From Lunularia cruciata (taxonomy: Eukaryota > Streptophyta > Marchantiopsida > Lunulariales > Lunulariaceae): a DNA stretch of 64,000 bases. The stretch is taken from contig OX419758.1 in NCBI GenBank assembly GCA_948567375.1, positions 5,089,001 through 5,153,000 of the forward strand. Reading direction: 5' to 3'. Both the position numbers and the translations under genes were made by a program. The notes beneath the pieces are model-generated. The model ran no database searches. It was not told where the DNA came from and was given only the letters and a program-made list of their open reading frames with translations. Shown here one piece after another: positions 8,975 through 39,430 of the stretch (the stretch's first letter is position 1; every line of letters begins with the position of its first letter).

Positions 8975-10965
8975 TGAGGTTGTAGGATTTTGGTTGATTC
9001 TAGAAGTTCAGAGAATTGCATATCTATGCAAGTAGCAAAGGAATTGGGTATTCCTATCAAGCCAATGATTGGAAGTAGATTGATGATGGCGGAGCGTAGA
9101 AAGGGTTCTGCATTCCGTACCTCACATCCTATTACTTTTAAGATTGGGAAGGAGTATTTGGAGTGTATGAGGTAGTGGCAGCTCTACACTATGATGTCAT
9201 TCTAGGACTACCTTGGCTTGAACATCATAAGGTTCAATTTGATTGGACCCAACAACAAATTCAAGTACAACACCAAGGTAGGAATTTCTGATTAGGTTGT
9301 TTGGCACCTCTAAGTAAGACACCTAAGACTAGTCAGTCCCAAGATGGGAAGTCTGTTGAGAAGGTAGCCATAGAGCATGCCTTGAAGAGAGAGGGCTCCA
9401 AGATGGGAAGTTTGCCACGAAGGCAACCATGGAGCAAGCTTTGAAGAGAAATGAGTCCCTAGATGGGGAGTTTGTTAGTGAAGCAGCCATAGAGCAAGCT
9501 TTGGAGGAAGATAAGTCTATTTTTGCAATGTGGATCAAGCAGATTGCACAAGGACAATCTGAGGAGAACCAAGAGCATCATTAAGCAATGGTTGATCAGA
9601 TAGTTCAGGAGTTTGTGGATGATCTGCCAAAGGGATTACCCTTTGATCATGGTATGTCCTTCAAGATTGAGTTATTGCCAAGGAGTACTCCATTGAATAG
9701 ACCAATCTATTGGCTCTCACCAAAGGAGTTAGAGGAGTTGCGAACAACACTTATGGAGTTGTGGAGAAGGACTTCATACAACATAGTACCTCTCCTTGGG
9801 GAGCACCGGTACTATTTGTTCCAAAGAAGGATGGAGGACTTTGTTTTTGTATTGATTATCATGGGCTCAATAAGCAAACAGTGAAGAATGTATACCCCTT
9901 ATCTTGGATTGATGACTTGCTTGATCAATTGAGTGGAGCACTATACTTTTCCAAGCTGGATCTTCACAACGGCCATTGGCAAATCCCCATTGATATGGAG
10001 GATGTGCAAAAGATATGGTATGGGCATTTTGAGGGGAGAGTTCTACCTTTTGGGTTCACTAATGCTCCAATAGTCTTCATGGATCAGATGCGTTGGGTGT
10101 TGGATGGACTATTGGATTGGTATGTGGTGGTGTTCTTGGATGATATCTTAATCTATAGCAAGACAAAGGTAGAACACGTGAATCACATGCAAGAAGTCCT
10201 AAGACAACTACGACAATGGAAATTTTACTGCAAGAAGTCAAAGTGTGCTTTTTGGCAAAAGGAAGTTATATTCTTGGGGCACAAGATCTCATTGGAGGGG
10301 ATCAAGATGGAAGAGGAGAAAATCAAGGCCATTACTGATTGGCCTTCTCCAAAGGATACTACAAAAGTACTTGCATTCAATGGACTGGCTATTTTTTACC
10401 GATGGTTCATCTATTATTATGCTCATGTAGCTACACCATTGATTGGCCTCTTGGGGAAGGACTTGAGCTTCCAATGGACCATCAAGCACAAAGAAGCATT
10501 CCAGAAGTTGAAAATATGGTGTCTTCAAGGCCTATTCTTCAACCATATGATCCTCAGCTACCCTATAAGGTTGATTTTGATGCTTCTAACTTTGCAATTA
10601 GAGCCATGTTGCAACAAGAATTCCCAGATGGACTACATCCTATTGCCTTTATGTCTTGCCAACTCAATATGGTTGAAAGAAACTATAATGCTTGAGATCA
10701 AGAACAACTTGCAATGGTATATGCCACCAAGGTATGAAGGCATTACCTCTTGGAGAAACAAGTGTTCATGCAAACTGATCACAAACCATTGTTGCAGACC
10801 TTACACTTGAAACACATGAAGAGTCAATATCATTGATGGGAGGAACAACTCCAATTTTTTGATATCAAACTTGAGTAAAAACCAGGTTGGTTCCACATCA
10901 TCCCTGATGCTTCATCACAACGACCTGATTTGAAATCTCTTCCTCTCATCACAATGGCAATTACA
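8975..10965 (+). pseudogene. Protease-reverse transcriptase-RNase H remnant of element A
   Basis: The protease segment reads ILVDSRSSENC at about 8990-9016, with Arg where the Asp-Ser/Thr-Gly active site needs Gly. RT follows (longest frame 9710-10810, 366 aa) with [40 protein letters not shown] and the catalytic box [12 protein letters not shown] deletion of a few residues after EDVQK removes the segment that is TTFCTR in B. RNase H (DFDASNFAI...) is in a shifted frame from about 10560. Stops and shifts make it inactive. Confidence 0.88.
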
Positions 10966-11174
10966 ACGATGTCAATTGACTCCAAGGTTCAAAACAAGTT
11001 TCAGTCAGCTCTACAACAAGATCCCTTCTTCCAAATGGTACATGGTTGCCTTACAGCATGCAACAAGGAGTAAAACACCTTCTCCATCAAGGAGGGCCTT
11101 CTATTCCATGAGGACCGGATCTATGTTCCAACCAAAGATGATCTTTGACTTGTGTGCCTTCAAGAAGCCCATGA

Positions 11175-12215
11175 TTTACCCATAGTTGGTCACATGGGTG
11201 TAGACAAGACCTTAGGTACCCTCCAACGTTGAGGATGGTGGCCCAACATGACACAAGATGTTTGAGAATTTGTCCCATCGTGTGAGAGTTGCCAACGCAA
11301 CAAGGCCAGCAACCAGAAGCCGAGTGAACTCCTTCAACCACTTGCCATTCTATCTGCTCAATGGGAGGATGTGAGCTTGGATCTCATCACATCCTTGCCC
11401 AAGACAAAGCAAGGACACATAGCAATCATGGTGTTTGTGGATAAGCTTAGTAAGAAAATCCACTTGGCACCAACTTGTGATATCGTGGATGCTCCAACCT
11501 TAGTTCAAATCTACTTCAACAATGTTGTCAAACATCATGAGATGCCATGTGTACTCATCTTCAACCGCGATCCTTGGTTTACCGGGAAGTTTTGGCAAGC
11601 ATTCTTCCAGATACTTGACACCAAGCTTGCTTTGTCCACGGCCTACCATCCTCAAACTCATGGACAAACCGAACGTGCAAATTGTACATTGGAAGATATG
11701 TTATATACCTTTGTCAATGACCACCATACCAATTGGGATGAATGTCTTGCAGCTACAAAATTTACCTACAACAATTCCAAACAAGCAAGCACCAGATTTT
11801 CTCCTTTCTTTCTCAATTTTGGTCAAGATCTGCTTGTTCCAAATTCTCTTCTTGCTCCTCCTCCATCTTAGGTTCCTCATACTTCAACATTCTTGACCAT
11901 TATATCCCAATCTCTCCAACAAGCCAAATCTCACCTCCTTGTTGCTCAAAATTGTCAAAAACAATATGTGGACCACATCATCATGATCTCACCTTTGAAG
12001 TTGGTGATAAATTCATGTTATCCTCCAGTAACCCTCCTCTCTCCCTTGATACCCAAGTTTTTCAACTTGCTCCTAATTGGATAAGACACTTTGATGTCAC
12101 CTAAATTGTCTCTCCTATTGTTTATTGACTTGCCTTGCCTTGTCATATGCGTATCCATCCTATCTTCCATGTTTCTAAGTTGAAATCCTTTGTTCCTAAC
12201 CCCTCTTCCTTTTCC
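11175..12215 (+). pseudogene. Integrase remnant of element A
   Basis: An HHCC finger (HMGVDKTLG..CESCQRNKAS), a first catalytic Asp (SLDLITSLPK) and the Glu of GQTERAN are visible in the 11371-11871 frame. The second catalytic Asp position reads IFNRDPWF where B has ISDRDP, a G-to-A type Asp-to-Asn change. The C-terminal part continues in other frames (LAPNWIRHFDVT) to the stop before the chromodomain. Confidence 0.85.
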
Positions 12216-16725: not shown

Positions 16726-17830
16726 AGAGGAAAAGGAAGAAGGGTTAGGAACAAAGTGTTTCAACTTGGAAACATGAAAGACAAGATAGATACGCATGTG
16801 ACAAGGTAAGGCAAGTTGATAAGCAACAGGAGAGATAATGTGAGTGATATCAAAAGGTCTTATCCAATTAGGAGCAAGTTTACGAACTTGGGTATCAAGT
16901 GGGAGAGGGAGGTTACTAGAGGATAGCATGACTTTATCACCAACTTCAAAGGTGAGATCACAACGATGATGGTCCGCATATTGTTTTTGGCGATTCTGAG
17001 CAACAAGGAGGTGAGATTTGGCTTGTTAGAGAGATTGGGATATAGTGGTCAAGAATGTAGAAGTATGAGGAACTTGAGAGGGAGGGGGAGCAAGAAGAGA
17101 ATCTGGAACAAGCGGATCTTGGCCAAAATTGAGAAAGAAGGGAGAAAATCTAGTGCTTGCCTGTTTGGAATTGTTGTACGCAAATTCTGCAGTTGTAAGA
17201 CATTCATCCCAGTTGGTATGGTGGACATTGACAAAGGCCCGCAACATATCCTCCAATATATGATTGGCACGTTCGGTTTGTCCATCAATTTGAGGATGAT
17301 AGGCCCTGGACAAAGTAAGCTTGGTGCCAAGTATCTGGAAGAGTGCTTGCCAAAACTTCTCGGTAAATCAAGGATCACGGTCGGAGATGAGTACATGTGG
17401 CATCCCATGATGCTTGAAGACATTGTCAAAGTAGATTTGCGCTAAGGTTGGAGCATCCACGGTATCACAGGTTGGTGCCAAGTGGATTTGCTTACTAAGC
17501 TTATCCACAAACACCACAATTGTGGTGTGTCCTTGTTTTGTCTTTGGCAAGGATGTGATGAGATCTAAGCTCACATGCTCCCAACGAGCGGATAGAATGG
17601 CGAGTGGTTGAAGGAGTCCACTCGGCTTCTGGTTGCTGGCCTTGTTCCGTTGGCAACTCTCACATGACCGGACAAAGTCTTGAACATCTTGTGTCATGTT
17701 GGGCCACCACCATTGGCGTTGGAGGGTGCCCAAGGTCTTGTCCACTCCCATGTGACCAGCTATCATGGGCTTCTTGAAGGCGCACAAGTCCAAGATCACC
17801 TTTGGCTGGAACATAGATCTGGTCTGCATG
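16726..17830 (-). pseudogene. Integrase of element B
   Basis: The frame at 17368-17829 has the HHCC finger (HMGVDKTLG...CESCQRNKAS), the first Asp (SLDLITSLPK) and the second Asp (ISDRDP). A TGA follows DRDP, where an Arg codon is expected. The frame at 17026-17313 supplies the Glu (GQTERANH) and the conserved FAYNNSKQAST. The tail runs to 16726 (KLAPNWIRPFDI). Catalytic triad intact, but at least one stop and one shift. Confidence 0.9.
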
Positions 17831-19168
17831 GAATAAAAGGCCTTCCTTGAAAGAGAAGGTGTCGTACTCCTTGTTGCGTGCTGTCAGACGACCATGTACC
17901 ATTTGGAAGAAGGGATCTTGTTGTAGAGCTGATTGAAACTCATTATGGACCTTAGGGTCAATGGACACCGTTGTAATTGCCGTCGTGATGAGAGGAAGAT
18001 CCTTCAAGTCAGGTCGTCGTGATAGAGCATTAGGGATGACATGGAACCAACCTAGTTTGTACTCAAGTTTGATGTCAAACAATTGGAGTTGTTCTTCCCA
18101 TTGATGATGCCAACTCTTCATGTGCTCCAAGTGTAAGGTCTACAACAATGGTTTGTGATCAATTTGCATGATCACTTGTTTCCCCAAGAGATAATGCCTC
18201 CATACCTTTGTGGCATATACCATTGCAAGTTATTCCCAATCTCGAGCAGAGTAATTTATTTCAGTTGTATTTAGTCAGTGAGACACAAAGGCAATAGGAT
18301 GTAGTCCATTTGGAAATTCTTGTTGCAACACAGCTCCAATTGCAAAGTTAGAAGCATCAAAATCAACCACACAAGGTAGTTAAGGATCATATAGTTGAAG
18401 AATAGGTCTTGAAGACACCATATGCTTTAACTTCTGGAATGCTTCTTCATGCTTGGTGGTCCACTGGAAGCTCGATTTCTTTCCCAAGAGGTTAGTCAAT
18501 GGTGCAGTCACGTGAGCATAATAGTGGATGAACCGTCGGTAAAAACTGGCCAATCCATTGAATGCTTGTACTTCTGTAGCATCCTTTGGGGTAGGCCAAT
18601 CAGTAATGGCCTTGATCTTCTCTTCTTCCATCTTGATCCCCTCTGATGAGATCTTATGACCCAAGAAGGTAACCTCCTTCTGCCAAAAAGCACACTTTGA
18701 CTTCTTGTAGTAAAATTTCCACTGCCGTAGTCTTCTTAGGACTTCTCGCACATGATTCATGTGTTCTACCTCTGTCTTGCTATAGATTAAGATATCATCT
18801 AAGAACACCACCACGGACCGATCCAATAGTCCCTCCAACACTTGATGCATCTGATCCATGAAGACTACTGGAGCATTAGTGAGTCCAAAAGGTAGAACTC
18901 TCCACTCAAAATGTCCATACCTTGTGCAAAAAGTAGTCTTTTGCACATCTTCTCCTTCAATAGGAATTTGCCAATAGCCGCTACAAAGATCCAGCTTGGA
19001 AAAGTAGCGTGCTCCACTTAGTTGATCAAGCAGGTCATTGATCCGAGGCAAGGGATATGCATTCTTCACAGTTTGCTTATTGAGTCCACGGTAATCAATA
19101 CAGAAACAAAGTCCTCCATCCTTCTTTGGAACAAATAGTACCGGTGCTCCCCAAGGAAAGGTACTATG
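17831..19168 (-). pseudogene. Reverse transcriptase-RNase H of element B
   Basis: The 18380-19069 frame (229 aa) holds [25 protein letters not shown], the catalytic [11 protein letters not shown] and [12 protein letters not shown]. RNase H follows (DFDASNFAI...; IDHKPLL) with several CAG/CGA-type stops, and its end (MEHMKSWHHQWEEQL) starts the 17660-18130 frame. A TGA at the RT entrance (DFI*HST) corresponds to Gln in A, and Arg is usual in this family. Confidence 0.9.
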
Positions 19169-23689: not shown

Positions 23690-24417
23690 CTCCAAGGACA
23701 AGAGAAGAGAGAAAACACAGATTGCACACTCAAACATTTGATGCACCAAAGAAGCACCTTCTCTTTATTATATAGACAAAGAGGATCTCGTCCAAGGAAG
23801 CTCCACCATAGGATTAGGGACACATATAGGTGACATGTCAGCAAGCTCCACCCTTGGATTACTTACTTGGATGGGTGACATGTCTGGTCTAGGTCCTATC
23901 TGGTTGGTCAAACAAGCTTTGACCAGAGGGAATCTTTTAGGGAATCTTCCTATAGGAATCTCAGAATCACATGAGTAAGGTACCGTTGGAAAGCTCTTGA
24001 CAAGACAAAGCAGAGGGGAGGGAAGGCCAACCTTTCCTCTACTGGGGGGAATTTGCACATTTTCAAGGCCTAATTCATCTGTTTAGGCCTCCAAAATTGC
24101 CTTCAAAAATTTCAAGCATATTTCGGTTCCTACTCTATTAGTAGAAGTCCCCTTTTGGTGATACCTCTTTTTGATCTGTTTAGTCCATCATGTGTAAGAT
24201 CCTTCCAGATGTTACCAAACCAATTCTCACCTTTAAATCATATGTCTAGCTATTGGTTCTAAGGTTCTCAAATCTATTCTGGTTTTTGCTCTATTAGTAG
24301 AAGTACTCTTTTGGTGATACTTCTATCTTATCTATTTTGACCATCATGTATAACATCATTCTAGATGTTACCAAACCAAATTTCACATCTAGATCATATG
24401 GCTAGCTCTTGGTATTA
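23690..24417. repeat. Dispersed repeat R, copy 1 (LTR-like)
   Basis: It matches 59878-60470 in the same orientation through many blocks: AGGTGACATGTCAG, GGGTGACATGT, GTTGGAAAGCTC, GGCCTAATTCATCTG and TTGGTATTACA at the end. Copy 1 carries an internal tandem duplication (about 157 bp, units starting near 24125 and 24282) absent from copy 2. Terminal ...TATTACA would suit an LTR edge, but no second LTR or coding region is linked to it. Confidence 0.6.
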
Positions 24418-25841
24418 CAATCTCCCTCCTAAGTGAACTTTATTCTTGGATCTTCTTTTACCCACATATTGGACCTAATTATAAAAAATTTATGCAATTT
24501 GATGCAATAGCTAATCTACTTCAGCAATTATTCTTACTTTTAAGTTGCACTCTTACTTCTTGCAACAAATGCTAGTGTGCCTTGAACACTTTAATGCTAT
24601 GCTTGTTGAGAACGCAAGCTTATGTAACACATTTGTTAATATCTATTTTATCCTCTGAACACATAAGCTTGAACAAGGGTACAAAGTGACGCATTGGCAC
24701 ATAACCCAACTTGCTAAGTAGATATTGGTGTTGCTTGCAAAAATTCTTATGTGCTCTTTGATTCATGTCATCCCACAATGGTGATTTCTTGATGTAGGTC
24801 ATGTTGAGACAAGACTTGAGAACCCCTACAATAATAACACACACTAATACTTGGAACTAATATAGAGCAGCCAATGGAACTCAAAGAACGCACCATCCTT
24901 ACATTCATACTATCAAAAACCGCTCAACTTTGCAAAAAATTTATTCTTCAATATCATCATATATTACTTGTATATTGATGGAATATGAACCTTTTTGGCT
25001 CAAATAAATTTCTCCATCCAGTTGGGGTCTTTGCACTAAAGGAAATAATGTACTACTATCATAATTTTATTTTCTCTCTCTAGGAACACATTGGATGCTT
25101 AGTTGTGGAGCTTATAGATAGGACATTGTGTGTAGACCTATCACTAATAATTTGAGCCCACTTGTTTGATGCAACCACCAAAACCTTATATCCGTGTTTT
25201 TAAATTTCCTTCTATCAAGTAAAGGAATAAAGGGCAACCTGACCTACCATCACAGCATGCACTCTTGGATGGTGACATCACTTCTACCATCACCATCTAC
25301 CATCACCATCTATCATCACCATTTCTACGGAAAAGGAACCTAAGTGCAACACCCTCACACCAATCCAAACAAATTGGGTGTACAATCAAGCACACCAACC
25401 ATGGAGAAAATTGAAAACAACCTCCATGACTCTGATAAGATTGTGCATCAAAGAAAAATTTCTTCGTCAAAGACTTGTTCTCCATCTTTACTCCAAGTGT
25501 TGCTTCCAAGAGTTTGACTTTTATGTCTTTGTGGGGAAGTATTTGTGAGACTCAAACTAAGATAACTTCCTTTGTGTAGCTCTTTGATTCAAATTATTTA
25601 GGTCTAAATGGAAATCATGTGAGATAAGCTTTCCAATGATATAAGGCAAGCTACCATCTGACTATTGTAGCTTTTGTGACACTCTATTGAACTTGGTTTA
25701 GTGTTTGTAGTCCAAACCCTAATTAAGGATCCAACCTTGGTTCTTGGAAAAATCTAACCAAATTTTTTATTGGAGGGTTAAGATAAATTCTCAAGAACAA
25801 TGCACCAAACTAAAAATCCTCAACCTTGATCTTACGCCATT
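24418..25841. other. Anonymous AT-rich region
   Basis: No convincing coding region. A short microsatellite-like run of ACCATCTACCATC units lies at about 25278-25325. A 68-codon minus frame at 25303-25509 overlaps that run and has no recognisable domain. Confidence 0.4.
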
Positions 25842-26362
25842 TGTAGTGCCGCATCTAGACACTCAAACACTGGAGTTCTAGTGATAATAGTTAGAGTTAT
25901 TTCAGCAGTTTCTCAGAGACTACTTTTTGACAGTTAGATTTCATGTTCAGGGTACTGACTTCACGGTGGGGCCCACTGTCACTTTGCACCGTTGAGTGTG
26001 CCGTCAGCAGGACCGTTAGGGTTTCAGTGCTAGCTTGAGTCCAGGGGGTATAGTTTTGAAGTGAGCTCTAGAGAGCTCACTTCTCTGATGTTGAGCCTTC
26101 GAGTTCCTAGCTATGGTGGACAGAGGCCGGTGAGCATCACTTGGATTCTCTATGCTTGAGTGGGTGTAGCTTGACTGTAATCAGTGCCCAGTTGTTGGAG
26201 TTTATAGAGTGACAGATCAAGTACTGATCTAAATTGAGTTGAGTTGAGAGTGGTAAGCAATCTGATTACATCAGAAAAGTGAAGTCATGGGGAAATCGGA
26301 AGCAGGGGATTCGGCGGACAGCCATCTTTAGGGTTTACGTCAGATTTTGGTTGGGATTTATG

Positions 26363-26472
26363 TCAGATTTGGAGGAGTTTTGTTGTTTGGCCAGATTTGG
26401 AGGAGTTTCGCTAGTTTGGAGGAGTTTCGCAGATTTGGAGAAGTTTTGCCAATTTTGGAGGAGGTTGGAAGT
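26363..26472 (+). repeat. Short tandem repeat in the 5' region of element C
   Basis: Five imperfect 18-20 bp units of the form ATTTGGAGGAGTTTCGCNAG lie in a row within the putative leader or LTR. There is no coding evidence here. Confidence 0.7.
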
Positions 26473-27353
26473 GGCAACAAGAAAGGCCTCATTTGGCTGA
26501 ATTTCGGCATTTAGAGGCTTTGAGGCATAGGGCTGTGGGCTATGAGAGGCTACGAAGGCCTAGAAGGGCCAGAGGGTAGCTAGTTTAGAGTAGATCTTGG
26601 TCATTGGTTGGCAAAATTTGCCTTTCCTGCTAGATTATGCGCAACATGGTTTGACCCCTAGATCTCTTGTTCCTAGACTGGTGCCTTAGCCAACTGGTCC
26701 ACCCTCACTTGTTGTCCTAGTGATTGTGCCACTGCTATCTATACACATGTAGCTTTGGCTAGGAGAGGCAGTTTGATCCCATTCTTGATGATCCTAGTAG
26801 CTTAGAACTTAGATACAAACTTCTCTTATGTCAAATGCCAAATGGTGGCAGAGTCAGTCCCATGTTGTGTTATGAGATGTAAGGTTTTCGTTTAGATTTC
26901 TTGTGATTGGATCCCCTCCATTATCTACTTCCTGTTTGTGCACCACGTTTGTGTGAGGTGCCTTCACTTTTGAGCGTTGGTGCTCTGGTGTGCTCTCGAT
27001 GGTAAGGCTGGAGTGATGACTAGTCAGACTACCTTTGTTTCTCTCCGGTGAGGCAAGAAGTGATGACTTGCAGACCGTGAGAGTGCGTGTTATGATAGCA
27101 GGTTACAGGTTGCCCTTTCCTCTAGTATAGTTATCTCGGTTAGAGTTATATTAGTGGGTGGTGCTTAGTTAGTATTGGCACTTGGTGGGGTACTTGCAGT
27201 TGTGACTTGCGGTTGCAGTTGGTGGTTTGGGTTTGTTGTTGTGGTTACTTTGTCACGACTGAGTTCTTTGGAGATTCTAGAGGAGTTAGCCCTGCAATAC
27301 GCAGTGGGTTTACTTGGAGTGGTGCTCAATATCAGCCTATATCTTAGGTCCTA
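26473..27353 (+). other. Leader region of element C
   Basis: G/T-rich, without a convincing reading frame. It lies between the tandem repeat and gag and probably contains the untranslated leader and a ruined gag start. Confidence 0.4.
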
Positions 27354-28930
27354 GTGAGGAAGGAGATTGACTCTGAGTTGGAGTTTGACACAGGAGCTGA
27401 TTCAGTTGAGAGTGCACTTGGTGTGTCCGTACCGTTGTTGTGGGACATGGACAAGATTTATGGGGCCTCCAAAGGCCCTAGGCATTACTTTGGTACAATG
27501 GTACCATTGAGTTGGATGACTTCATCCAGGAGTTTGATAGTTGGTGTGATCTACAATAGATGCGGAACCCAACTTTGTTCACACCCTTCATGGCATGGAA
27601 GGGGTTGTTTCAGCATCTGGAGGGTCCGCTGATGGATGACTACCATGAGTTCAGGAGAGCTCATTTGGAGGAGATTGAGTTATGGAGACAGTGTTGGTCT
27701 CCATACTATGTCTCCATCACTTCAAGCTTGGTGGCCAAGAGTAGATCGGCTGTACCCACAAGTTCTAGCTTGAGTAGTGTTGGTGGAGCTAGTGGAGGTG
27801 CACTAGCTGGAGATAGTGCTACTACAAGTGGAGGTACCGTTGCAGGAGGTGGTGTGGTACCGGGGTTTAACCCCATGGTGGAGTTCTTCCTATGTTTGAG
27901 GTAGAACTACCAGGGAGTGCGGACTGACAAGCTGAGGAGCTTGCAGGAGTTCCAGCGGAAGGCTAGAGAGAGCCTATGCAAGGCATACACTTGCATGAGG
28001 CGTCTGATCAATTTCACTTAGGGAGTTACTGAGGCCCAGGCAGTCCAGTTTTGGTATGGGATACTAGAAAGGGAGTTAAGATGTAGAGTTTGTGATGCTA
28101 CGTTGTTGCAGGCTACTTTGCCCACTTTGGCAGTAGTCTTTGGTTTGGCTAAGCATATTGAGCTCAATATGGTGGAGGAAAGAGTGGTGATATCTGGATT
28201 TGGTAGGGAGACCTCATCCACGATTGTGACTTCTTCTAGAGGGCAACAGAGTGCACCACGCCTAGTTGGTTTTTGAGGACAGGGTGGACAGCCCAGATCC
28301 TATGGAGCGAGTGGAGGGCCTAGTGGAGTTCGGCCCTTACCCTCATTTTTGAGTCAGCAGCAGCCAGTGAGTGGTGGTGTTGCATGTTGGACTTGTGGTG
28401 GACCTCACCATAGGAGAGAGTGTACTTAGGGTAGTGGACTTGATACCTCGGGTGCATCACAGCCAGCACATAGGCAGTGTGAGCATTGCCACAGATTTGG
28501 TCACACTCGTGACCAGTGTTTTGACCTACACCCGGAGTTACGGAGTGGTAGGGCTACTATGGCTGGTAGTAGAGGAGCTCTAGTTCATGGAGGACAAGGT
28601 GGTAGAGGTGGTGGTAGAGGATCTACACCTAGTAGAGGTGCAGTACCTACCCTTACTTCTGACACAACTATAGCTACTCGGATTGAGCAGTTGGAGCAGA
28701 GATTGGCTAGTATGGCTATTGCTCAGAGGAGATCAGATTTGGGTGTTGAGGCTTCCACCTCATATGCTAGTGATAGAGATGCTTTGGACTTCATGCGCAG
28801 AGCAGCACAGGTGGATGCATCTGTAGCAGTGACTAGGAGTGCAGTACGTGCTCCAGAGCCTAGAGGAGCATCAGTGGAGTTGGACCCACAGAGAGGAGAG
28901 GTTGGGAGACAGGTTAGACTTCCCTAGTCT
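27354..28930 (+). pseudogene. Gag of element C with two zinc knuckles
   Basis: Capsid-like blocks ELDDFIQEFDSWCDLQ (about 27505-27555) and FTPFMAWKGLFQHLEG are followed by FWYGILERELRCRVCDA. Nucleocapsid has two knuckles: CWTCGGPHHRREC (28385-28423, CX2CX3HX4C) and CEHCHRFGHTRDQC (28478-28519, CX2CX4HX4C). A Gly/Arg-rich basic linker (GGQGGRGGGRGS) follows, then a short coiled-coil-like segment (TRIEQLEQRLASMAIAQRR). Most of it is one frame with stops near 27556, 27902 and 28018; the first 150 bases are in another frame. Confidence 0.8.
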
Positions 28931-28963
28931 TTCACGCTATCTGAGGCATTGTAGACGACATCC

Positions 28964-29750
28964 ATGGCTCTTAGACGTCCTAGTGTAGGTGTGGTAGGTG
29001 GTGATGGAGTACATGATGGACTACCTGTTAGTCAACCACCTGCTACTACACAGACTGAGTCTAGCATGATGTTGGGGGCGGCTCAGCTGATTATGTGGCA
29101 TCCTTTGTTTTCGGCCAATGATATGTTTACATTGGGAGTTGACCCAGCCCTAGTATTCCGGTTGGCTGCCACATCGTGTGAGAGTACGGATGGTGCACTT
29201 CCTACTACTAGAGTAGAGGTGGTTGGTAGTGGAGTTGACTTGGTTGAGGAGCATGGGATCTGTTCAGCGACCAGTGGTTTATGGCAGGCAGTAGCGGCTA
29301 GACTGGAGGAGTTGCCAACTAGACCGGCCTTTGAGAGAGCACGGTTTACACCTGGTGTTGTCCTATTGGATAACCAGAGGGGGATTTTTTGTTTGGTGGG
29401 ACCTTCAGGGAAGGTCTATACACCACAAAGAGTCTTGTTAGACTCTGGTGCGCAGCCCCTTATGTTGGGGAAGACTGCAGTTGTCGGTCTTGAGTTACGG
29501 AAGACCGATGTGGAGAGGTGTCCATTTCAGATCCAGACATCTCTAGGTGGTGGTTTGACACAATACATCACACGTGGGGAGCTTGTTGTCCAGGTTCAAC
29601 TTGGTCATCCGACTGATAGCTCAGGCTATTGCGACAATAGCTGAGTCATATGATGTGCTAGTTGGGGGAGCAATGTTATACCCCATGGGTTTCAGCATTG
29701 ACTATTGGGAGGAGATAGCCTCCTATAGACCTGGTTGGCAGTCTGGTGAG
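28964..29750 (+). pseudogene. Retropepsin-like protease of element C
   Basis: The frame to 29643 contains RVLLDSGAQPLMLG, with an intact Asp-Ser-Gly at 29441-29449, preceded by a long linker. After one frame change the second half continues in 29574-29807 (ESYDVLVGGAMLYPMGFSID, the conserved protease C-terminal block). A second change near 29750 brings the sequence into the frame used by the rest of pol. Confidence 0.75.
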
Positions 29751-31320
29751 GGATGGGTATGTTGCCTACCAGTATGCTTCAGTAGTGGCAATCTTGGCTC
29801 ACTATAGTCCGGGACCATCAGTTTTAGCTTTTAGTGGTGCAATTACGTGACCTGGTGACTTGTTGGAGGGGAACGCCCATGCAGAGGATACTCCAGTACC
29901 AAAGGAGATCACTCGGCTTTGGAGTATGAGTGGGATTGTTCCATCCACCTTGGATGTTCCATTGTGGAGTTCAGAGGAGGCATTGTAGCAGCATGCAGAT
30001 TAGTTGGTGCAGTAGGCTTGGAGTGGAACCTTTGTACCATCAGGAGATGAGTGTGAAGATGAGCCTCCAGAGGCGATTGCTTTGACCTCTTTGGATACCA
30101 CACTCATTGCTTGGCAGTATCTAGTTGAGGGGATATGCCTATTGGAGTTGTTTGGTGGGATCAGCACCGGACTAGCTACGGTGTTACAGGCGGGTATACG
30201 AGTACAGAGGTACTTGTCTGTAGAGAGAGATGAGACTACTAGGTGAGTCTCTCTACATCATGTGGCACACTTGGCCTATTGGTATCTGGAGTTATTACCA
30301 ATGTCAGCAGTCAGAGGTTACCAGAAGGCCCTACCAGGAGACATTTCCTTACTCGGGGCTCATGACCTAGAGAGACATGGGCCTATTCACTTGGTGATTT
30401 TTGGATGCCCATGTCAGGGACATACACGTGCTGGTAGAGGATTGGGTCTTTAGGATCCTCGTTTTGGTGTGTTTTGGGAGATGTTACGGATACTACAACA
30501 TCTCCAGGTTCATCAGTCTGTTTCTCCAGCTTACCTTTTGGAGAACGTTCCTTTGATGGGTGATTCTTGCACCAGAGTAGTGGTGAGTACACATCATGTC
30601 CATTCTTGGATGGGACCTGCTATATTGTTAGATGTAGCCAGTGTGGGATCACGGGCTCATCGTCTTTGTCTTTGGTGGATGAACCTCTTACCCAAAGAGG
30701 TTCTACAGCGCGCTTATGATGGGATTCAACAACTTGACCACATCCTTGTTGATGATATCTTGGATGTTGAGCATTAGTCTCAGATAATGGTAGTGGCTGA
30801 TAGGTCACCTATGGCTGTGGTGAACCTAGTTGGACAGCCTAGAGCTGCATTTCCCACACTCATGAGTTTCCCAAGCTCTCATGCTTTTTGAGAGGGAGGA
30901 CCTGGACTTGTTTGGGACTCACAATTACAGCAATTGGTGGAGCCCAACGTTGATGAGAGAGAGCTGGTGATAGGTTTTCACACCAGTATTACCACTATTC
31001 CAGCAGTGTTAGAGGCATCTAGGCGTCAGGTGTTAGGTCAGGCTATGGACCTGAACTGTTTGACCTGGATTGTGAGCCTTGGCTTGGCAGAGCAGCGTAA
31101 GATGTGCTTGATAGGCATCACCACTCGGACACTTGTGAGCCATGTGCCTATCAAGACAATTCAGGCACATGCTGGGGGCGATGGACCGAGTGGACATGGT
31201 ATTCTTGGGACATATCCAGTAGCTACTAGGGAGAGTGGTCTACTTGGAGTCCATCCAGGTGAGCGTGGGCTACTTAGATTACACCCTTGGTCCACATGGG
31301 ATGCAGCTATATGACATGTG
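29751..31320 (+). pseudogene. C5 cytosine DNA methyltransferase domain inside gypsy pol
   Basis: The ordered catalytic motifs are in one frame. Motif I is LLELFGGISTG (30139-30171), the S-adenosylmethionine loop. Motif IV is FGCPCQGHTRAGRG with the nucleophile Cys at 30412-30414. Motif VI is YLLENVPLMG (ENV at 30541-30549). Motif VIII is SRAHRLCLWWMNLLP (30649-30693). Motif IX/X is ELVIGFHT and EASRRQVLGQAMDLN (30961-31056). The GISTGLATVLQAGIRVQRY and AHRxxxWWxNL flanks resemble DNMT3-type enzymes, although motif IV has PCQ and not PCN. The core is about 317 codons, with a short target-recognition part. Stops at 30244, 30451, 30775 and 30889 inactivate it. It would have methylated cytosine in DNA. 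It lies between protease and RT, in frame with RT. Confidence 0.88.
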
Positions 31321-31428
31321 GAGCTTGCAGCTAGAGTGGAGGGAGTTTTTCACATGGAGGTTGGGACCTCTAGTGGTCGGGAGCATGACACTATTGCTCC
31401 CAAGGGCCCAGTGTAGCAGTCAGTCAGT

Positions 31429-32403
31429 ATGTCTTCCACTCCTACTACAGTTACAGAGGATACTTGGGAGCCAGATCTTGGACCCAAGCTTATTGGAGAG
31501 GAAAGACGGAGGGTTTGGAGGTTCTTGAGGAGTCACACGAGTTGTTTTGCCTTCAGTATGAAGGATTTGGGTGCTCTAAAGGGACCTGGTATACGGATTG
31601 AGCTGACTAGCAACACACCAATTTTCCAACGTCCTTATCGATATAGTGATATGGAGAGGACATTGATTCAGAGCCGGAGTAGTGACCTTTTTGAGGTTGG
31701 TTTGGTGGAGATTTCACATGGAGAGTATGTATCAGTGATAGTGATGCCAGCCAAGAAGGATATGCATGGCAACTATACAGATAGGCGGATGTGTGGAGAT
31801 TACCGTCCTATCAACCGACAAACCAAGGCTGATCGGTATGCCATGCCTACACCGGAGGAGATTTTTGATGCGATTGGGCATGCAAAGGTCTTCAGTACTT
31901 TGGATCTTCAAGCGGGATATCATCAGTTGCCGATCAGGGAGGAGGATAAGTCCAAGACAACATTTTGGGCTATTGATCTTCACGGCAAGGATGTGTTATA
32001 TCAATGGAGGTTCTTACCATTTGGGTTAAAGAATGCCCCTGCTGAGTTCCAGAGGGTCATGGATAGGATCCTAGCTGGATTGGATTTTGCTTGGTGCTAT
32101 ATTGATGACATTTTGGTTTATAGCACAACTGTGGAGGAGCATGAGAGATAGTTGTTGGAGGTGTTTGAGAGGTTGAGATCCTATGGACTCAAATTACATC
32201 CAGGGAAGTGTAGGTTCTTCCACAAGCAGGTTGAGTATTTGGGTCACACTATCTACCCCGGAGGACTTGGTGTTCAGCAGACCAAGGTGGAGGCTATTGC
32301 ATGTATTCCTCGGCCTACGGATGTGAGCAAAGTGTGAGCATTCCTTGGGTTGGCAAACTTCTATTGCCGCTAGGTTAGAGGATTTAGTGCCATTGCCAAG
32401 GCT
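31429..32403 (+). pseudogene. Reverse transcriptase of element C
   Basis: The 31429-32151 frame (240 aa) includes IRIELTSNTPIFQRPYRYS, FSTLDLQAGYHQLPI, FLPFGLKNAPAEFQRVM and the catalytic YIDDILVYS (YIDD at 32098-32109). After a single TAG it continues HPGKCRFFHKQVEYLGHTI into the thumb region (AFLGLANFY). The frame is the same as for the methyltransferase and integrase. It differs clearly from the A/B family (FLDD). Confidence 0.93.
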
Positions 32404-32900
32404 TTGACAAAGCTGACCAAGCCTACACAGGAGTGGTGTTGGGGAGATGAGCAGGAGAGAGCTTTTGTAGAGCTCAAGGAGAGGTTGACATCTACTCCTA
32501 TTTTGAGGAGACCGATCAGGGGACAACCATTTCAGGTTCACACTGATTGGAGTATGTTGGGGCTTGGAGCAGTGCTCACCCAGCATGATGATGAGGAGAA
32601 GGAGTTTGTGGTGGCCTATGCTAGTCGCTCCAACAATTCAGCGGAGGTGAAGTATAGTTCATATGAGGGAGAGTGCTTGGCAGCAGTTTGGGCAGTAGCA
32701 CATTTCCGATGTTACCTATTTGGTAATCCCTTCACTCTCATCACTGATCATCAGCCGCTGAAGTGGTTGATGGAGTCCGATAAGCTTTCAAGGAAGCTTG
32801 CATGATGGGCTTTGATTTTATAGGATTATGATTTCACGGTTGTTCACAGACTTGGAGTGGTGAACCATGATGTGGATGGGTTGAGTAGAAACCCATGTCC
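32404..32900 (+). pseudogene. RNase H of element C
   Basis: FQVHTDWSMLGLGAVLTQHD (first Asp region), YSSYEGECLAAVWAVAHFR (catalytic Glu) and TLITDHQPLKWLM are the conserved Ty3/gypsy RNase H blocks. The HRLGVVNHDVDGLSRNP end leads to the integrase linker. A TGA after KLA and a TAG interrupt it. Confidence 0.92.
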
Positions 32901-33189
32901 CAGCCAGCAAGATCAGACCGGAGCATGTTGGCATGGTGAGACAGATGAGGAGATGGTGCCAGGTTGGCATGCATCGGCCTTTCTGTGTATATTTGCAGAG
33001 GCTTTGGTGGTATCTCTCTCAGCGCATACAAGAGGAGTTATTGAGGTCATAGATCCAGAGAGTGAAGATATTGGTATAGTTCAATGAGACATTCATGATG
33101 ATGTCTTAGTGATGGACTATCTTTGCATTGGTGTTGTGGGTGGCACAGTTGGGGCCAAGGAGAGAGACTATGTTCTTCAGTGAGCCAGG

Positions 33190-34190
33190 CGGTTCAGATT
33201 GGAAGGTAGACACCTTTTGCATGTATGGGAGGATGGTAGAGTGCGAGTAGTACCACTTCCATCACAGAGACCACAGTTGGTCCGTCATGCTCATGAGGAG
33301 CTAGGACATTTTGGAGTAAAGCGTACATATAGCTTACTCCAGAGTCATTATTGGTGGCACGGTATGCAGACCAAGGTATAGCAGTTTGTTGTCAAATGTG
33401 TGGTTTGTGACCGAGTTAGAGCATCATTCAATGCTCCTACGCCACAGTTACACCCATTACCTATCATGGGATTGGGTTAACATTGGAGTTTGGACTTTGC
33501 CGGACCTTTACCGCTGACTGTGAGACATCATTGGTATGTTTTGGTGATGGTGGAGCACTTCTCCAAGTGGATTGAGTTGGTGGCACTTCCTGACAAGTCT
33601 AATGAAGGGACAGCTTACTCGTTCTTGGATTGAGTTCTTAGTCATTTTGGTGCACCAGCTGAGGTTTTGACTGATCAGGGTACAGAGTTCTTGGGGGAGT
33701 TTCAGGTCTTGTGTGACAAGGCTTTGATTGATCATCATACTACATCCCGAGATCACCCTGAGGCGGATGGCTTAGCAGAGAGAGTGGTTTAGATGGTGAA
33801 GAGAGGATTGCAAAAGTATGTTTTGCAGAGAGGCCACTTGGGAGATTGGGATCTCCAATTACCTTGGTTGACCATGGGCTATCAATTCAGCCGGCAAGCC
33901 TCCTTAGCATCCTTCTCTCCATACTTTCTACTCTATGGACAAGATCTTGTTTTACCTACAGCTATTCGTCGAGATGTTACCGTAGTTTTGGACTTGGATG
34001 ACCCCGATGTATGGATGAGCGCATGTTCTCAACGGGTAGAGATCTTTTGGAGAGTGATGCCAATGGCCTTTGAGAACTTGGCGATTGCTCAGCATAGAGA
34101 TACTTTACGATATGCTACCATTCAAGGAGGAGGTTATAGACCCTCGATCCATCAATTTCATCTAGGCGACTATGTATATCTATAGCAGAC
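33190..34190 (+). pseudogene. Integrase of element C
   Basis: HHCC finger: HAHEELGHFGVKRTY...CVVCDRVRAS. Core: first Asp in WSLDFAGPLP (33493-33495), second Asp in LTDQGTEF (33673-33675), Glu in LAERVV (33778-33780), with DD35E-type spacing. The C-terminal part includes FSPYFLLYGQDLVLP and HQFHLGDYVYL. Stops are mostly TAG at Gln or Trp positions. Same frame as RT and the PHD finger. Confidence 0.92.
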
Positions 34191-34230
34191 AACACCGACA
34201 ACACTTGATGTTTCTACTAGCCGCACTATC

Positions 34231-34530
34231 TTGAGAGTGCACGAGGTTTTGCCATATGGAGTCCTTGTGTTAGAAGGACATGATGGTGTTGTTTGGAAGG
34301 ATCATGTGCACAATTGTGTGCCATGCCACCTCCCAAACATTGATGGTATTATGGACCCAAGCTTGGCACTTGTACGTGTAGGCTTGAGGTGTATGTTATG
34401 TGGCTCTTTTGGTGGAGCTGCTACTATGTTAGTGTGTGATAGATGTTCAAGAGGATGGCATATGGCATGTATGACTCCTCCCCTCACGGTGGTTCCTCAA
34501 GGACAATGGTTATGTCCTAGATGTGCTTGA
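34231..34530 (+). pseudogene. PHD finger at the C-terminus of element C pol
   Basis: After the integrase tail the same frame gives a C4HC3 zinc finger. CMLC is at 34390-34401, CDRC follows 12 residues later, then WHMAC, and QWLCPRC at the end (last Cys 34522-34524, stop TGA 34528). The spacing CX2C-X12-CX2C-X4-HX2C-X14-CX2C, with a Trp two residues before the last pair, fits a PHD finger, usually a reader of histone H3 tails. It occupies the place taken by the chromodomain in chromoviruses, so a targeting role is inferred. The finger itself is free of stops. Confidence 0.88.
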
Positions 34531-34698
34531 CCTATAGCTAGTTCATTCTTTATATGGTATAGATTGCAGACAGGCAACTAACGATGGGGCTCCATAGCAC
34601 CCGGCCTCCTGATCTTTGCCCATTAGAAGGTATATCATATACTTAGAGTAGATGGCTATCTGGAGTTAGAGGGACCTAACCGCTAGCTAGGGGGCAAT

Positions 34699-37170
34699 TG
34701 TGGCACTTTAGAGTCTATGTATGACTTGTGTGTGAGTTGTGCTTCTATAGTGTATGATGTTGACAGCGATGTATGTTGTGTAGCGATGTATATGCACACG
34801 AAAAATGAGATGTCATGAAATGTCATTCAATTGGAGTTGGAAATAGATTATTCCTCAAAGCTTATGCTAGTATTTTCAAAAGAGATTGTTGCATCAAATC
34901 ATATCCCTCCATAAATCATGAGCCAATGAGATTTTACAAAGTAGTTGGTTGTGCTTCTATCTAAACCTATATGAAATTTGGAATTTTAATTTGATCTCAA
35001 TCCGTGGATATGGATCAATTCCCAAGTTGGGCTAATTTTTTAGCCCAACAAACCTAGGTATACTTGATCCAAGACTCCAAATTCTCTATTTAAATAACTC
35101 ATATGAAAAATTTTCACACAAGTACAAGACTTAGCCACCAACAATAAAATAAACTTTAATAGTCTGATTAGAACCAAAGTTTGAGAAGTGACCAAAACTC
35201 CAAACCTGATCATAATCTCCTCCCTAACACTATGATTTTCAATACTCCAATTTAAATTGATGAGATCAGATTTTAGATCAAATCGAAATTGGAATTTCCT
35301 TAGCTCAACATGACCATTAGTTTTTCTACTCCCCAAAGTCACTAACAGATCATGAAAGTATGATGGAACTCCTCAAATTTATACAACTAACCCCCCTTGC
35401 TTTGATTAATCATATTGCATTCAAACTTCACTCAATCTCTTGCTTCTTATCTCCAAACCATACCATGTAAGCTCCTCTCTCCAACTATGGTCTTTTCTTC
35501 CCAAATACTTTTCCTAAATTTTCTCAAAACATCAAAAACCTCCCAACTTCTCTTATTGAGATTCAATTCTTGCTGTTTTGTCATTTATTATTCTCCTTTT
35601 GACACATGGACACCAGAACTCCACCTTGAAGCCCTTGAATGAAATTAAGTATTTCTCCTTCTAAAAGAGCACATGAATTTTCAAGTCCCAAACCTATCCA
35701 TAATTAAGCATAAGAAGGACAATAAGACCCAAGCTCATCATCAATGCCATAAACACAAACCCAAAATGTGCTACAATCCAAGCTCAAAAGTAATCATGAT
35801 GCAAAAATCTGAAGCTTGATGAGAAAAGGATTCAAAAGTGGTAGATCAGGAGCATGGACCATCTCTTGTTCCAATTCTTCTTTGAAGCTCTAGCTCCCAC
35901 ACTCTAATACAATTCTCACTCTCAATATAATTCTCTCACTTGCAATTCCGAAAACTAAAACACACCCCATCTATGAAATCTCTACCTATATACATCAAAG
36001 CCCTCAAAGAGGACACAAAGAACACACATGGCAAATCACTTAAATGTACATAGATTGCTCATATAGCAATAGCTCAACCGTGGGATCTATTGTACGGTCA
36101 ACCAACCTTATTGCTACCATATTGCTAATCAACCAACCAACGGTATTGTTATCTCATTAGTGGGATCTATTGTACAAACTACTCTTTCATTGGCTATGCA
36201 AGCCACAACATGACACCATCCACCAATCCAACACATCCTTGAAACTCTTTTGGTGCAAAAGCATTTGAAATTATAACTCTCTTTTTTATCAAGCCAAGCA
36301 ACATCTTTCCCAAGAGTAGATACAATAGTTGACATGAATTTTTTTAAATTTTGTTTTAGATCCTAAACTATTACCACAAAAATCTGTGCTCCTTATCATT
36401 TCTACTATGTTTAAACAGATCAAGTGTTGCTACCAATTGAACCCACATAGGGGTTTAGATCTTTCATTAATCTCTCTTTTTGAAAAAATCATGGTCTCTA
36501 ATGAGGTCAAGTGAACAATTAAAGATTCAACCTCCATTTTCACTAGCTATCTTAATGAATAGAGATCAAGATGTCTAAAACTTCAAGATCTATAAACTTC
36601 TACTAGTTCACTGTTGTCTTCTATATTAGAATCAAAGTTACTCCATTTTTCATCCTATTTTCTTAATCCAAACTTGTCCAATCCCCCTCATCCACTTCTC
36701 ATTCATGAAAGTAAAGCTCACCTTCCCCTTCTCTAGTGGAAATTTGCTTCCGCATGCATTTCTTAATTTGCCCTATGGGATGGGAGAGTGCCAAGTCTTG
36801 TGGACCTTGCCTTGCATGGCTAGTGCCATCTCAGCCAATGGGATTGGGCTTTCCACATTCCAACTACAAATGACAAGGATCCCTCAATCTCACTTTTATG
36901 ACATGCTTTGGTCTCCCACAACTTACATGGCAATGATGAGTAGTATATTGGCATGCAAAAGATAGGCTCATGTGGTTTAGGACCGATGTGTTCAGCCCCA
37001 TTGACATAACTATGGGTGACCTCATGAACAGAGCTTTCAGCTTAAAGAAATAGTCCAAGAAACTCTAGAATGGTCTAGTTTGGGCAAATTTAAGGCACCA
37101 AGCAATAATCAGGGCATAAAAGCATGCCGTTGTCATAGGGAAACTAATACACATGTACCATTGGTGCTAG
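34699..37170. other. Anonymous region right of element C
   Basis: TGTGGCACTTTAG at 34699 could start a 3' LTR of C, but I could not match it convincingly to the left side. From about 34850 the DNA becomes AT-rich with no recognisable genes. GTGGGATCTATTGTAC occurs twice (about 36079 and 36161). Confidence 0.4.
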
Positions 37171-37379: not shown

Positions 37380-39430
37380 CAAGGGGTTTTGGAGCTTCGA
37401 GAGAAAAGCCTGAACAGGTCTGCAAAAGGAAAAGAGAAGGAGGAGAGTATTGAAAGGAGTGTGGAGTAGGAAGGAAAAAGGACTTCGAGAAGGAGAAAAA
37501 TATAGGAGTTAGTGATGGGGGAGAAGAGAAAAGAGGAACAGGGAGAATAGGAAGAATTAGGACAAAAATAGGGTTGTGGGGTTTAATGAAAAATGTTAAA
37601 GAGGAGAGCACTAAGGAGGGAAAGGTATCATCAAAGGGTTTGGGGCCAAGGGGTGAGAGCAATAAGGAGGGAAAGGAATCATCAAAGGGTTTGGGGCCAT
37701 GGGGTGAGACCCCGGAGGTATGCAGGAAGAAGAGAATTTTTTTTGGTGAGACTTCTGTAGGAGTGATGCATCAAGAGAATTGGCAGAACAGTGAATCATC
37801 AAAGGGAAGTTTTGGCTAGGCAGAAGGATTTTAGGGGTTTGGAAGGACATTGATTTCTTGAAGGAGGAACTGAGAAAACAGGAGAAAAGGATCAAAAAGT
37901 TAGAGAGTTTGGACAGGAGGAGAAGTCCCAAAGGAAGGATTGGGGGGTTTCTCGAGGAGTAACAGAACAGGTCGGGAGAGAAGGAGTCGGATGGACAGGA
38001 CATTCATGAACAAAGGGAAAAAATCTTGAAGGGTCTGGCAGTAGAGAGAATTTTAGAGAGGAGTGAAGTTGTTTGGAGAGAACGCGAACATGAAGTTTTT
38101 GGGACAAGAGTGTGAGGGCTTTTGGGAGAAGGGCAGGAAGTGAATTGCATTGGGAAAGAGTGTGAGGGTTTTGAGAGAATGTGAAGACCAGTTATGATTT
38201 TAGAAGAGAATGTGAAATTGTTTAGAGGAAAGAATGTGAAGACCAATAATGCATTTGGAGAAGAATTTAAGGTTTAGGAGAAGAGAAGTTTTCAGGAGAT
38301 TGTGTTATCATTCAAAGGAAAAAATGTGAAGACCAGTTATGCTTTTGGAAGAGAGTGTGAAATTGTTCGGAGGAAAGAATGTGAAGACCAGTAATGCATT
38401 TGGAGAAGAATGTGAGGATTTCAAGAGAAGAACAGAGCTGGAGAGCAGAAGAAGGACAGAGAAGTGATATTTTTTGGGAGAGAAAGTAAAGACCTGTTAT
38501 GCTTTCGAGAGAATGACAGAAATGTGATATTTTTGGGAGAGAATGTGAAGCTGTTAAGAGAGAATGAGAACGGGATGATTTTGGGAGAGTGTGTGATGCT
38601 TTAGAGAGTGAATGTGAAGCTCTTTGAGAATGGCAGTGGTAGTGATGCATTTGAGAGAAGTTATGCTTTTTGAGATATTTGAAGATTGTGAAGAACAAGT
38701 AGGGTTTTAGGAGTTGACAGAATTTTTGGGACAAGAATAGGAAGTGAGTTGCTTTGAAGAAGAATGTGAGATTTTGGGAGATGAATAGGAAGTGATTTTC
38801 TTTTCTTGGGAAAGAAAGTAACATGATTTTAGGAGAAGGATAGGAAGTGATTTGCTTTTTGGGAAAGAGTATGAGAGATGATTTTGGGAGAATGACAGAG
38901 ATGTTTTTGGAAGAATGATAGAGAAGAGAAGAAGACATTAAGATTCAATGGAAGCAAAAGGTAGTAAGCTGATAGGAAGAGAAGGAGAGTGAATTCTCAA
39001 AGGAAGTGTGACTGAGATGGGGAGAAGAAGGAGTAATAGTGATAGGGTTTCTGGAAGATGAAAGGGGTTTGGAAAATAATTCAAGTGACCAGGAATGTTG
39101 AGAGAAAGCTTCAAAAGAGTCTTTTGCAGCAATTGGACAGTTAAGGGGTTTGGGAAATGTTTGAGTGACCACGAGGGTTTAAGGATGTTCCATGAGAGGG
39201 TCTTTCATTGAGAATAAAACTGGAGAAGGAGAGAGAATTTTGCAAGAAGGAATAGTGTGGATGTAGGAGTTGGGAAGGCTGGACAATGAAAAGTCTTTCG
39301 CTTGAATGTTGCCAAAGAGTGTGAGAGGAAGGGAGAAGGTCAGAAGGGTGAAGTCCCAAGGAGAATTTGCCAGATAGAGAGAGGACGTGGGGTGAGACAG
39401 TTGCGACAGAATAGAAAGAATAGATTGTAA
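37380..39430 (+). repeat. Long GA-rich tract with nested tandem repeats
   Basis: About 2 kb of purine-rich plus strand built from units such as GAATGTGAAGACCAGTTATG. A 51 bp unit is duplicated at 37613-37713. A roughly 145-160 bp unit recurs with starts near 38178, 38323 and 38483. The long minus-strand frames here (up to 208 codons at 38312-38938) are Ser/Leu/Phe-rich products of this composition and not genes. The flanks resemble neither LTR family in this window. Confidence 0.7.

Follow-up and report, generated by a model that had tools for sequence, protein, structure and literature searches.

In the liverwort Lunularia cruciata, a cytosine-5 DNA methyltransferase (MTase) of DNMT3-like type is carried by an abundant family of Ty3/gypsy retrotransposons, one decayed copy of which occupies 25830..34801 (+ strand) of the stretch analysed here (the window, 64,000 nucleotides, C7:5089001-5153000, in a host genome of 566 Mb and 74 contigs). 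In this family the MTase closes the gag-protease open reading frame (ORF1) and is separated by an in-frame UAG from the reverse transcriptase (RT)-integrase frame (ORF2), and the element is bounded by split direct repeats together with target duplications. DNMT3-bearing gypsy elements are already known from Klebsormidium (main text of PMC5890265), and the present family is a variant of such elements. A mobile element equipped with a DNA methyltransferase of the de novo type touches the centre of host defence, and this family makes the question testable, being abundant in one genome, with many copies that look fairly young and relatives in the model plant Marchantia polymorpha.

Identity and position of the methyltransferase

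The first-pass annotation, made from the letters of the window, had read 29751..31320 as a C5-MTase within a Ty3/gypsy element, and the profile search that it called for bears this out: the frame 29752-31320, with stops written as X, matches the Pfam DNA_methylase entry PF00145 at 2.1e-6 and 27.8 bits (cut-off 22). The motifs I, IV (PCQ), VI (ENV), VIII and X occur in the order that it gave, motif IX can be added to them, and the whole is canonical and unrearranged. The catalytic PCQ, ENV and RxR are present as in DNMT3, the proline before the cysteine being replaced by glutamate in the related proteins P0177 and P0028. By profile comparison the element enzyme matches DNMT3A at 6e-21 and DNMT2 at 1e-8, and its predicted fold is likewise nearer to DNMT3 than to DNMT2; judged by profile and predicted fold, the enzyme is thus DNMT3-like, as had been proposed.

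The domains of the window copy were placed with protein pieces from copies having open frames. The MTase match covers 30160-31119 at 86.6% identity to these pieces, and the domain is set at 30133..31119 (+), its start moved to motif I by residue count. It lies between the protease region at 29222..29551 (+; protein match, DSGA motif, in a frame that differs from the MTase frame in the window copy) and the RT at 31687..32436 (+; YIDD, Pfam and protein match), the position that the annotation had assigned to it. Its claim of a frame common to MTase, RT, integrase and PHD finger likewise agrees with the protein matches, which put RNase H in this frame as well.

The PF00145 search of the host genome scored 123 places among 2,161 candidates, and 28 of the 123 were examined, namely 8 at first and then 20 chosen for long open frames. 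Among the first 8, L005-L008 belong to the element and L001-L004 do not. Locus L001 is a DNMT3, with solved-structure matches of 5e-35 to DNMT3C and 8e-35 to DNMT3A; angiosperms are not known to have a true DNMT3. Locus L002 is a DRM (solved-structure match to DRM2, 1.6e-103), a type confined to streptophytes according to the main text of PMC12344493. Both share the C5-MTase fold and motif set with the element enzyme, and DNMT3 also the motif order; they differ in lying at loci without element sequence, and the element MTases group in a clade of their own. This rules out that the signal in the window comes from a host DNMT gene or pseudogene.

In all 20 copies chosen for long open frames, the MTase adjoins RT. 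An exact junction pattern occurs at 1,521 places in the host genome and at none for the reversed control, and the genome accordingly holds at least 1,521 junctions of the MTase-bearing family. A chance motif match is ruled out by these counts together with the PF00145 and DNMT3A profile matches, and the annotation's central claim, for which other genomic copies and a C5 methylase match were the checks proposed, stands. Compared with the same 20 copies, the dead copy in the window is about 92% identical over the MTase (29751-31320) and about 96% over RT (31417-32805); this gap may mean that the MTase has evolved faster in the active lineage, or that subfamilies have recombined.

The in-frame UAG between methyltransferase and reverse transcriptase

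Gag, protease and MTase share a single ORF of 1428 aa in copies L009 and L010, and ORF2 measures 1037 aa in L013 and L014. Pfam finds RT, RNase H, H2C2, rve integrase and PHD in ORF2 of L014, where RT, RNase H and DDE integrase follow one another as in Ty3/gypsy. In every one of the 21 copies read, among them that of the window (TAG at 31414..31416, +, followed by CAG TCA), a single in-frame TAG stands between the two frames, and ORF2 continues in the same frame directly behind it. The TAG is followed by CAG and then by CCA (16 copies), CTA (3) or TCA (2), all 21 fitting UAG-CAR-YYA, which is the type I stop-codon readthrough consensus described from tobamovirus (main text of PMC3542737). The motif is common to both systems; here it sits within a retrotransposon and the readthrough is inferred from the sequence. 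Genome-wide, TAG is present at 1,465 of the 1,521 junctions, a count that informs on the TAG and not on constraint at CAR-YYA, since CAG and YYA belonged to the search pattern. The codon before the TAG varies among the rows listed, in which the exceptions are TAA (four), TTG, GAG and AAG (one each).

The earlier description of an MTase built into the pol polyprotein is therefore right as to its place in the element between protease and RT, and has to be amended as to the frame, because the domain ends the gag-protease ORF and the UAG parts it from RT-integrase; an MTase belonging to the RT-integrase ORF is ruled out for the host family. With its place at the end of the gag-protease ORF, ahead of a stop in a leaky context, the MTase would be produced at Gag-like levels. 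The RT encoded beyond the UAG is under constraint (ratio of nonsynonymous to synonymous rates, dN/dS, 0.21) and should therefore be translated. Among relatives, the Marchantia ORF1 proteins P0001, P0002 and P0007 and the JGI record P0003 end shortly past the MTase, and MTase and RT share one ORF in P0177, P0184, P0192 and P0222.

ORF2 could instead be reached by re-initiation, an internal start or splicing. The near-universal stop at the genomic junctions would suit such a route, as would the Marchantia gene models P0004, P0006 and P0009, which bridge the stop to RT; however, ORF2 lies in frame immediately behind the stop and the UAG-CAR-YYA context recurs in every copy read, and we consider a route other than readthrough rather improbable.

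Split repeats and target duplications at the element ends

Copies of the family begin with a repeat A of 449 bp and end with a repeat B of 107 bp, a second A and a second B, which gives split direct repeats of the form A...B-A-B as in DIRS-type elements. The B-A join is present in 18 of the 20 fetched copies, L017 and L025 having no A2 beside B, and B follows A2 wherever this was read. Sequence outside A1 (6 copies printed) and outside B2 (8 printed) differs between copies. Both flanks were read in 13 copies, and 12 of these have a 4-bp target duplication directly outside TGTCAC... and ...CGACA (L021 is without); these TG/CA tips with a 4-bp duplication are as in Ty3/gypsy elements, whose target duplications measure 4-6 bp. 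Many copies look fairly young to judge by the likeness of A1 and A2: of 11 copies in which at least 300 bp could be compared, 9 show 97-99% and the remaining two 96% and 90%. Among the 13 copies read on both sides, three are nested inside copies of the same family: L019 is flanked by a repeat of its own pre-B region, L020 lies within an A repeat and L023 beside a reversed ORF2 piece.

The layout is not the plain one of long terminal repeat (LTR), internal region and LTR, and plain LTRs are ruled out by the A...B-A-B arrangement; the enzymes are gypsy-like and the ends are not. Typically, DIRS-type elements have a tyrosine recombinase in place of the integrase and make no target duplication. 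The Pfam lists for the copy proteins hold no PF00589 and show an rve integrase instead, and with this integrase and target duplications the family thus departs from the DIRS pattern of a tyrosine recombinase without duplication. Layout and duplications together suggest that a DDE integrase acts upon ends arranged like those of split-repeat elements, which is puzzling under the standard picture of how LTR elements replicate.

The first B follows a G-rich tract, and two bases separate it from A2, GC in most printed copies (GACA-GC-TGTC). Long repeats of the form B-A would result from a conventional cycle that starts at the G-rich tract and runs to the first base beyond A1, and a two-repeat circle cut at the B/A join would yield A...B-A-B. 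The integrase would then act where B meets A in a circular or concatemeric intermediate and not at simple LTR ends. In the window (at 34802), as in L017 and L025, B occurs without an adjoining A2, and such copies may show how split repeats arise or vanish. The missing A2 (and, in the window, B2) may be due either to B-B recombination or to a one-repeat product.

Relatives, descent and known systems

The MTase protein search, which scored the 8,000 candidates richest in shared words, returned at least 47 proteins: 14 from Marchantia polymorpha at 60-73% identity, one from Sphagnum fallax at 49%, and for the rest environmental and JGI records at 31-53%, with P0003 at 69%. The Marchantia proteins were already deposited as hypothetical proteins. 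In the RT search, the best 120 of 3,759 matches include Calypogeia, Riccia, Closterium and Klebsormidium, and a transcriptome assembly supplied the close relative P0171. The nearest element relatives among the matches listed are those of liverworts (Marchantia, Calypogeia, Riccia), and relatives that bear the MTase are present in Marchantia, Sphagnum, Closterium and metagenomes. In Closterium, and in those land-plant proteins that cover both domains, the MTase precedes RT; in P0023-P0030, P0033-P0038, P0040, P0042, P0043 and others it lies between RNase H and integrase. Searches of IMG/VR contigs gave 0 loci with the RT query and 10 loci, at 24-36% identity, with the MTase query.

A quick RT tree of 131 rows, built with no bootstrap, places all 36 MTase-bearing rows within one 99-row set (Shimodaira-Hasegawa-like approximate likelihood-ratio test, SH-aLRT, 92), and the RNase H-MTase-integrase arrangement within a 23-row subset (SH-aLRT 89). 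The other 63 rows of the 99 show no MTase, and many of them are fragments. Klebsormidium RT rows fall in the same set as those of the host; no MTase was seen in P0195, P0244 and P0250, the three Klebsormidium proteins available for comparison, and homology of the enzymes is presumptive.

The MTase tree retains 28 of 49 element rows and 13 of 22 others from a larger quick tree, most long rows being left out; it includes few named DNMT3 proteins and its root is unplaced. It sets the 28 element enzymes apart from the 13 free-standing ones, the host DNMT3 included, with 100/100 support, and the larger quick tree gives the same split at 100*. The element MTases of the sampled set thus probably go back to one old capture. 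In this light the earlier suggestion that the element captured a DNMT3-like enzyme here holds for the presence of such an enzyme in the element; the capture itself looks older, being shared with Marchantia, Sphagnum, Closterium and environmental elements. Acquisition from the host's own DNMT3 is supported neither by the MTase tree nor by the profile scores, because the best domain of the host DNMT3 scores 54.9 bits against the element profile and environmental free-standing enzymes reach 71.9. One capture followed by one move within the polyprotein would be the simplest reading of the trees; two captures from a single unsampled donor lineage are a possible alternative. The environmental polyproteins P0270, P0276, P0044 and P0047 have a very divergent MTase-like domain before RT, with a PHD finger in two, and possibly represent older or separate captures.

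In the literature, de Mendoza et al. (2018; PMC5890265) describe DNMT3 in Pol of a Klebsormidium nitens gypsy element and of dinoflagellate elements, and a 2025 study (PMC12344493) reports in its main text that streptophyte and dinoflagellate elements carry DNMT3. KnitGypsy-Dnmt3 of Klebsormidium nitens resembles the host family in its gypsy domains and in an unrearranged DNMT3 within the coding region, and a figure legend assigns its repeats to the DIRS-retrotransposon type, the host family being DIRS-like in this respect as well (PMC5890265). It differs in that its MTase is described inside the Pol ORF, whereas that of the host family ends the gag-protease ORF before the UAG; the main-text description mentions neither a stop between MTase and RT nor a target duplication. 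It is also an algal element of few copies, compared with the junction count given above for the host family. SymbioDIRS-Dnmt3 of dinoflagellates is similar in being a retrotransposon with DNMT3 and split repeats, and its two domain orders within Pol parallel the two MTase positions among the relatives described here (PMC5890265); it is of DIRS type with a tyrosine recombinase, in contrast to the DDE integrase and 4-bp duplications of the host family. Our literature search, which covered main texts without supplements and was not exhaustive, found no account of bryophyte members and none of the UAG or of split repeats accompanied by target duplications.

Proposed role of the methyltransferase

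The reading that we favour is that of an old lineage with one capture of a DNMT3-like enzyme, in which a leaky UAG would place the MTase at Gag level, the enzyme would methylate the element's own DNA, and integration would proceed from split repeats; taken as a whole, we regard it as evenly balanced between right and wrong. Most ribosomes would halt at the UAG and yield Gag-protease-MTase in structural amounts, and a minority would read through to give the whole polyprotein. The layout predicts an MTase packaged like a structural protein; the protease would release it inside the particle, where it may methylate the element's new DNA before or during integration, and the PHD finger would link the integrase to nucleosomes. 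The element may benefit in that its incoming DNA looks like methylated host DNA. Both the activity and the purpose of the enzyme are inferences. In a broader form, to which we would give somewhat less than an even chance, an old streptophyte gypsy clade would have a DNMT3-like writer and a PHD reader as standard equipment, with the writer at Gag stoichiometry through a leaky stop of plant-virus type, a DDE integrase inserting a circular or concatemeric intermediate and so producing split repeats with target duplications, and an MTase that moved within the polyprotein (before RT, or between RNase H and integrase) yet was kept.

Across the 20 copies, dN/dS is 0.38 for the MTase, 0.48 for the protease, 0.54 for the integrase and 0.24 for PHD, beside the RT value given above, and 0.24 for gag (19 copies, L017 missing). 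Nonsynonymous to synonymous variants number 30:28 among private and 10:17 among shared changes in RT, and 43:28 and 11:19 in gag. Private transitions per site amount to 0.345 at CG, 0.332 at CHG, 0.060 at CHH and 0.016 at A/T over the 20 copies, and to 0.179, 0.130, 0.013 and 0.008 in the window copy; these are C-to-T changes in CG and CHG contexts, the trace expected of ordinary plant silencing. The self-marking for tolerance that the annotation had suggested is a conjecture.

Several of these results, besides the limit on the junction count, weigh against the favoured reading. Constraint on the MTase within the host genome is weaker than on RT (0.38 vs 0.21), and its nonsynonymous to synonymous variants differ little between private (66:40) and shared (27:23) changes. 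Inside the host genome the constraint is thus weak, and conservation between species is the better case. The scars on inserted copies are explained by plant host enzymes; being the mark of plant methylation, they are therefore not creditable to the element MTase. Finally, the DNMT of the Klebsormidium gypsy element produced no methylation in yeast, a result that its authors call inconclusive (PMC5890265).

Of the other roles, self-restraint fares best, in which the MTase would mainly hasten the silencing of new copies, with less damage, a lower transposition rate and tolerance by the host. The concentration of private changes at CG and CHG indicates that copies end heavily methylated, and de Mendoza et al. 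offer this option among others (PMC5890265). The same scars also speak against it, as their CHG component suggests host enzymes and not a DNMT3-type one, and the figures come from the MTase-bearing family alone; we hold this role to be unlikely, though worth keeping in mind. The MTase and PHD finger might otherwise act on host DNA near the insertion site, preparing or locking chromatin. A PHD finger accompanies the integrase in the host family and in many relatives, as this would lead one to expect, but MTase and PHD are in separate ORFs with the UAG between them, and such target marking appears improbable. An RNA substrate, with methylation of the genomic RNA or the primer tRNA at packaging, would draw on an MTase that is made with Gag and hence close to RNA, and C5 enzymes of DNMT2 type do act on tRNA; profile and fold, however, are closer to DNMT3 than to DNMT2, which makes this very doubtful. 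That the MTase is a passenger, a relic carried along without benefit, would agree with its constraint below that of RT inside the host, but is scarcely credible in view of catalytic residues that stay invariant in 19 proteins sharing 35-72% identity with the L010 domain, and of the 60-73% identity of the 14 Marchantia rows, which long neutral drift would not leave.

The window copy and its surroundings

The copy in the window has the layout A1-ORF1-UAG-ORF2-B, delimited by nucleotide match of the element parts and by its domains. Repeat A1 lies at 25830..26268 (+) with 89.7% identity, its start being approximate as the match runs from A position 5 (25834), and the leader behind it has a gap. 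The gag region is at 27500..28141 (+). Pfam gave no match on the gag and protease stretches, whose labels come from the CCHC and DSGA motifs and from position; in the relatives P0018 and P0019, the protease stretch matches PF13650 and PF13975, which are protease-type entries. Downstream of RT follow RNase H (32437..32856, +; Pfam and protein match), the DDE integrase core (33217..33816, +; protein match, with H2C2 and rve by Pfam in L014) and the PHD finger at the ORF2 C-terminus (34372..34527, +; Pfam 3.2e-11 and protein match), and the short repeat B with the G-rich tract before it ends the copy (34697..34801, +; nucleotide match). A second A and a second B were not found by nucleotide match of the element parts to the window. 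The copy is dead: its MTase has 4 stops in 340 codons, and there are 3 stops in RT, 4 in the integrase and 3 in gag.

Other Ty3/gypsy pol pieces occur in the window at 18050-19105 (-), 17239-17757 (-), 9764-11703 (+) and 3918-4460; they comprise RT, RNase H and integrase at 25-39% identity to the MTase-bearing family, with no MTase match. At 37604-38879 and 24112-24413 there are short, imperfect tandem repeats whose units or spacings measure about 48-156 bp.
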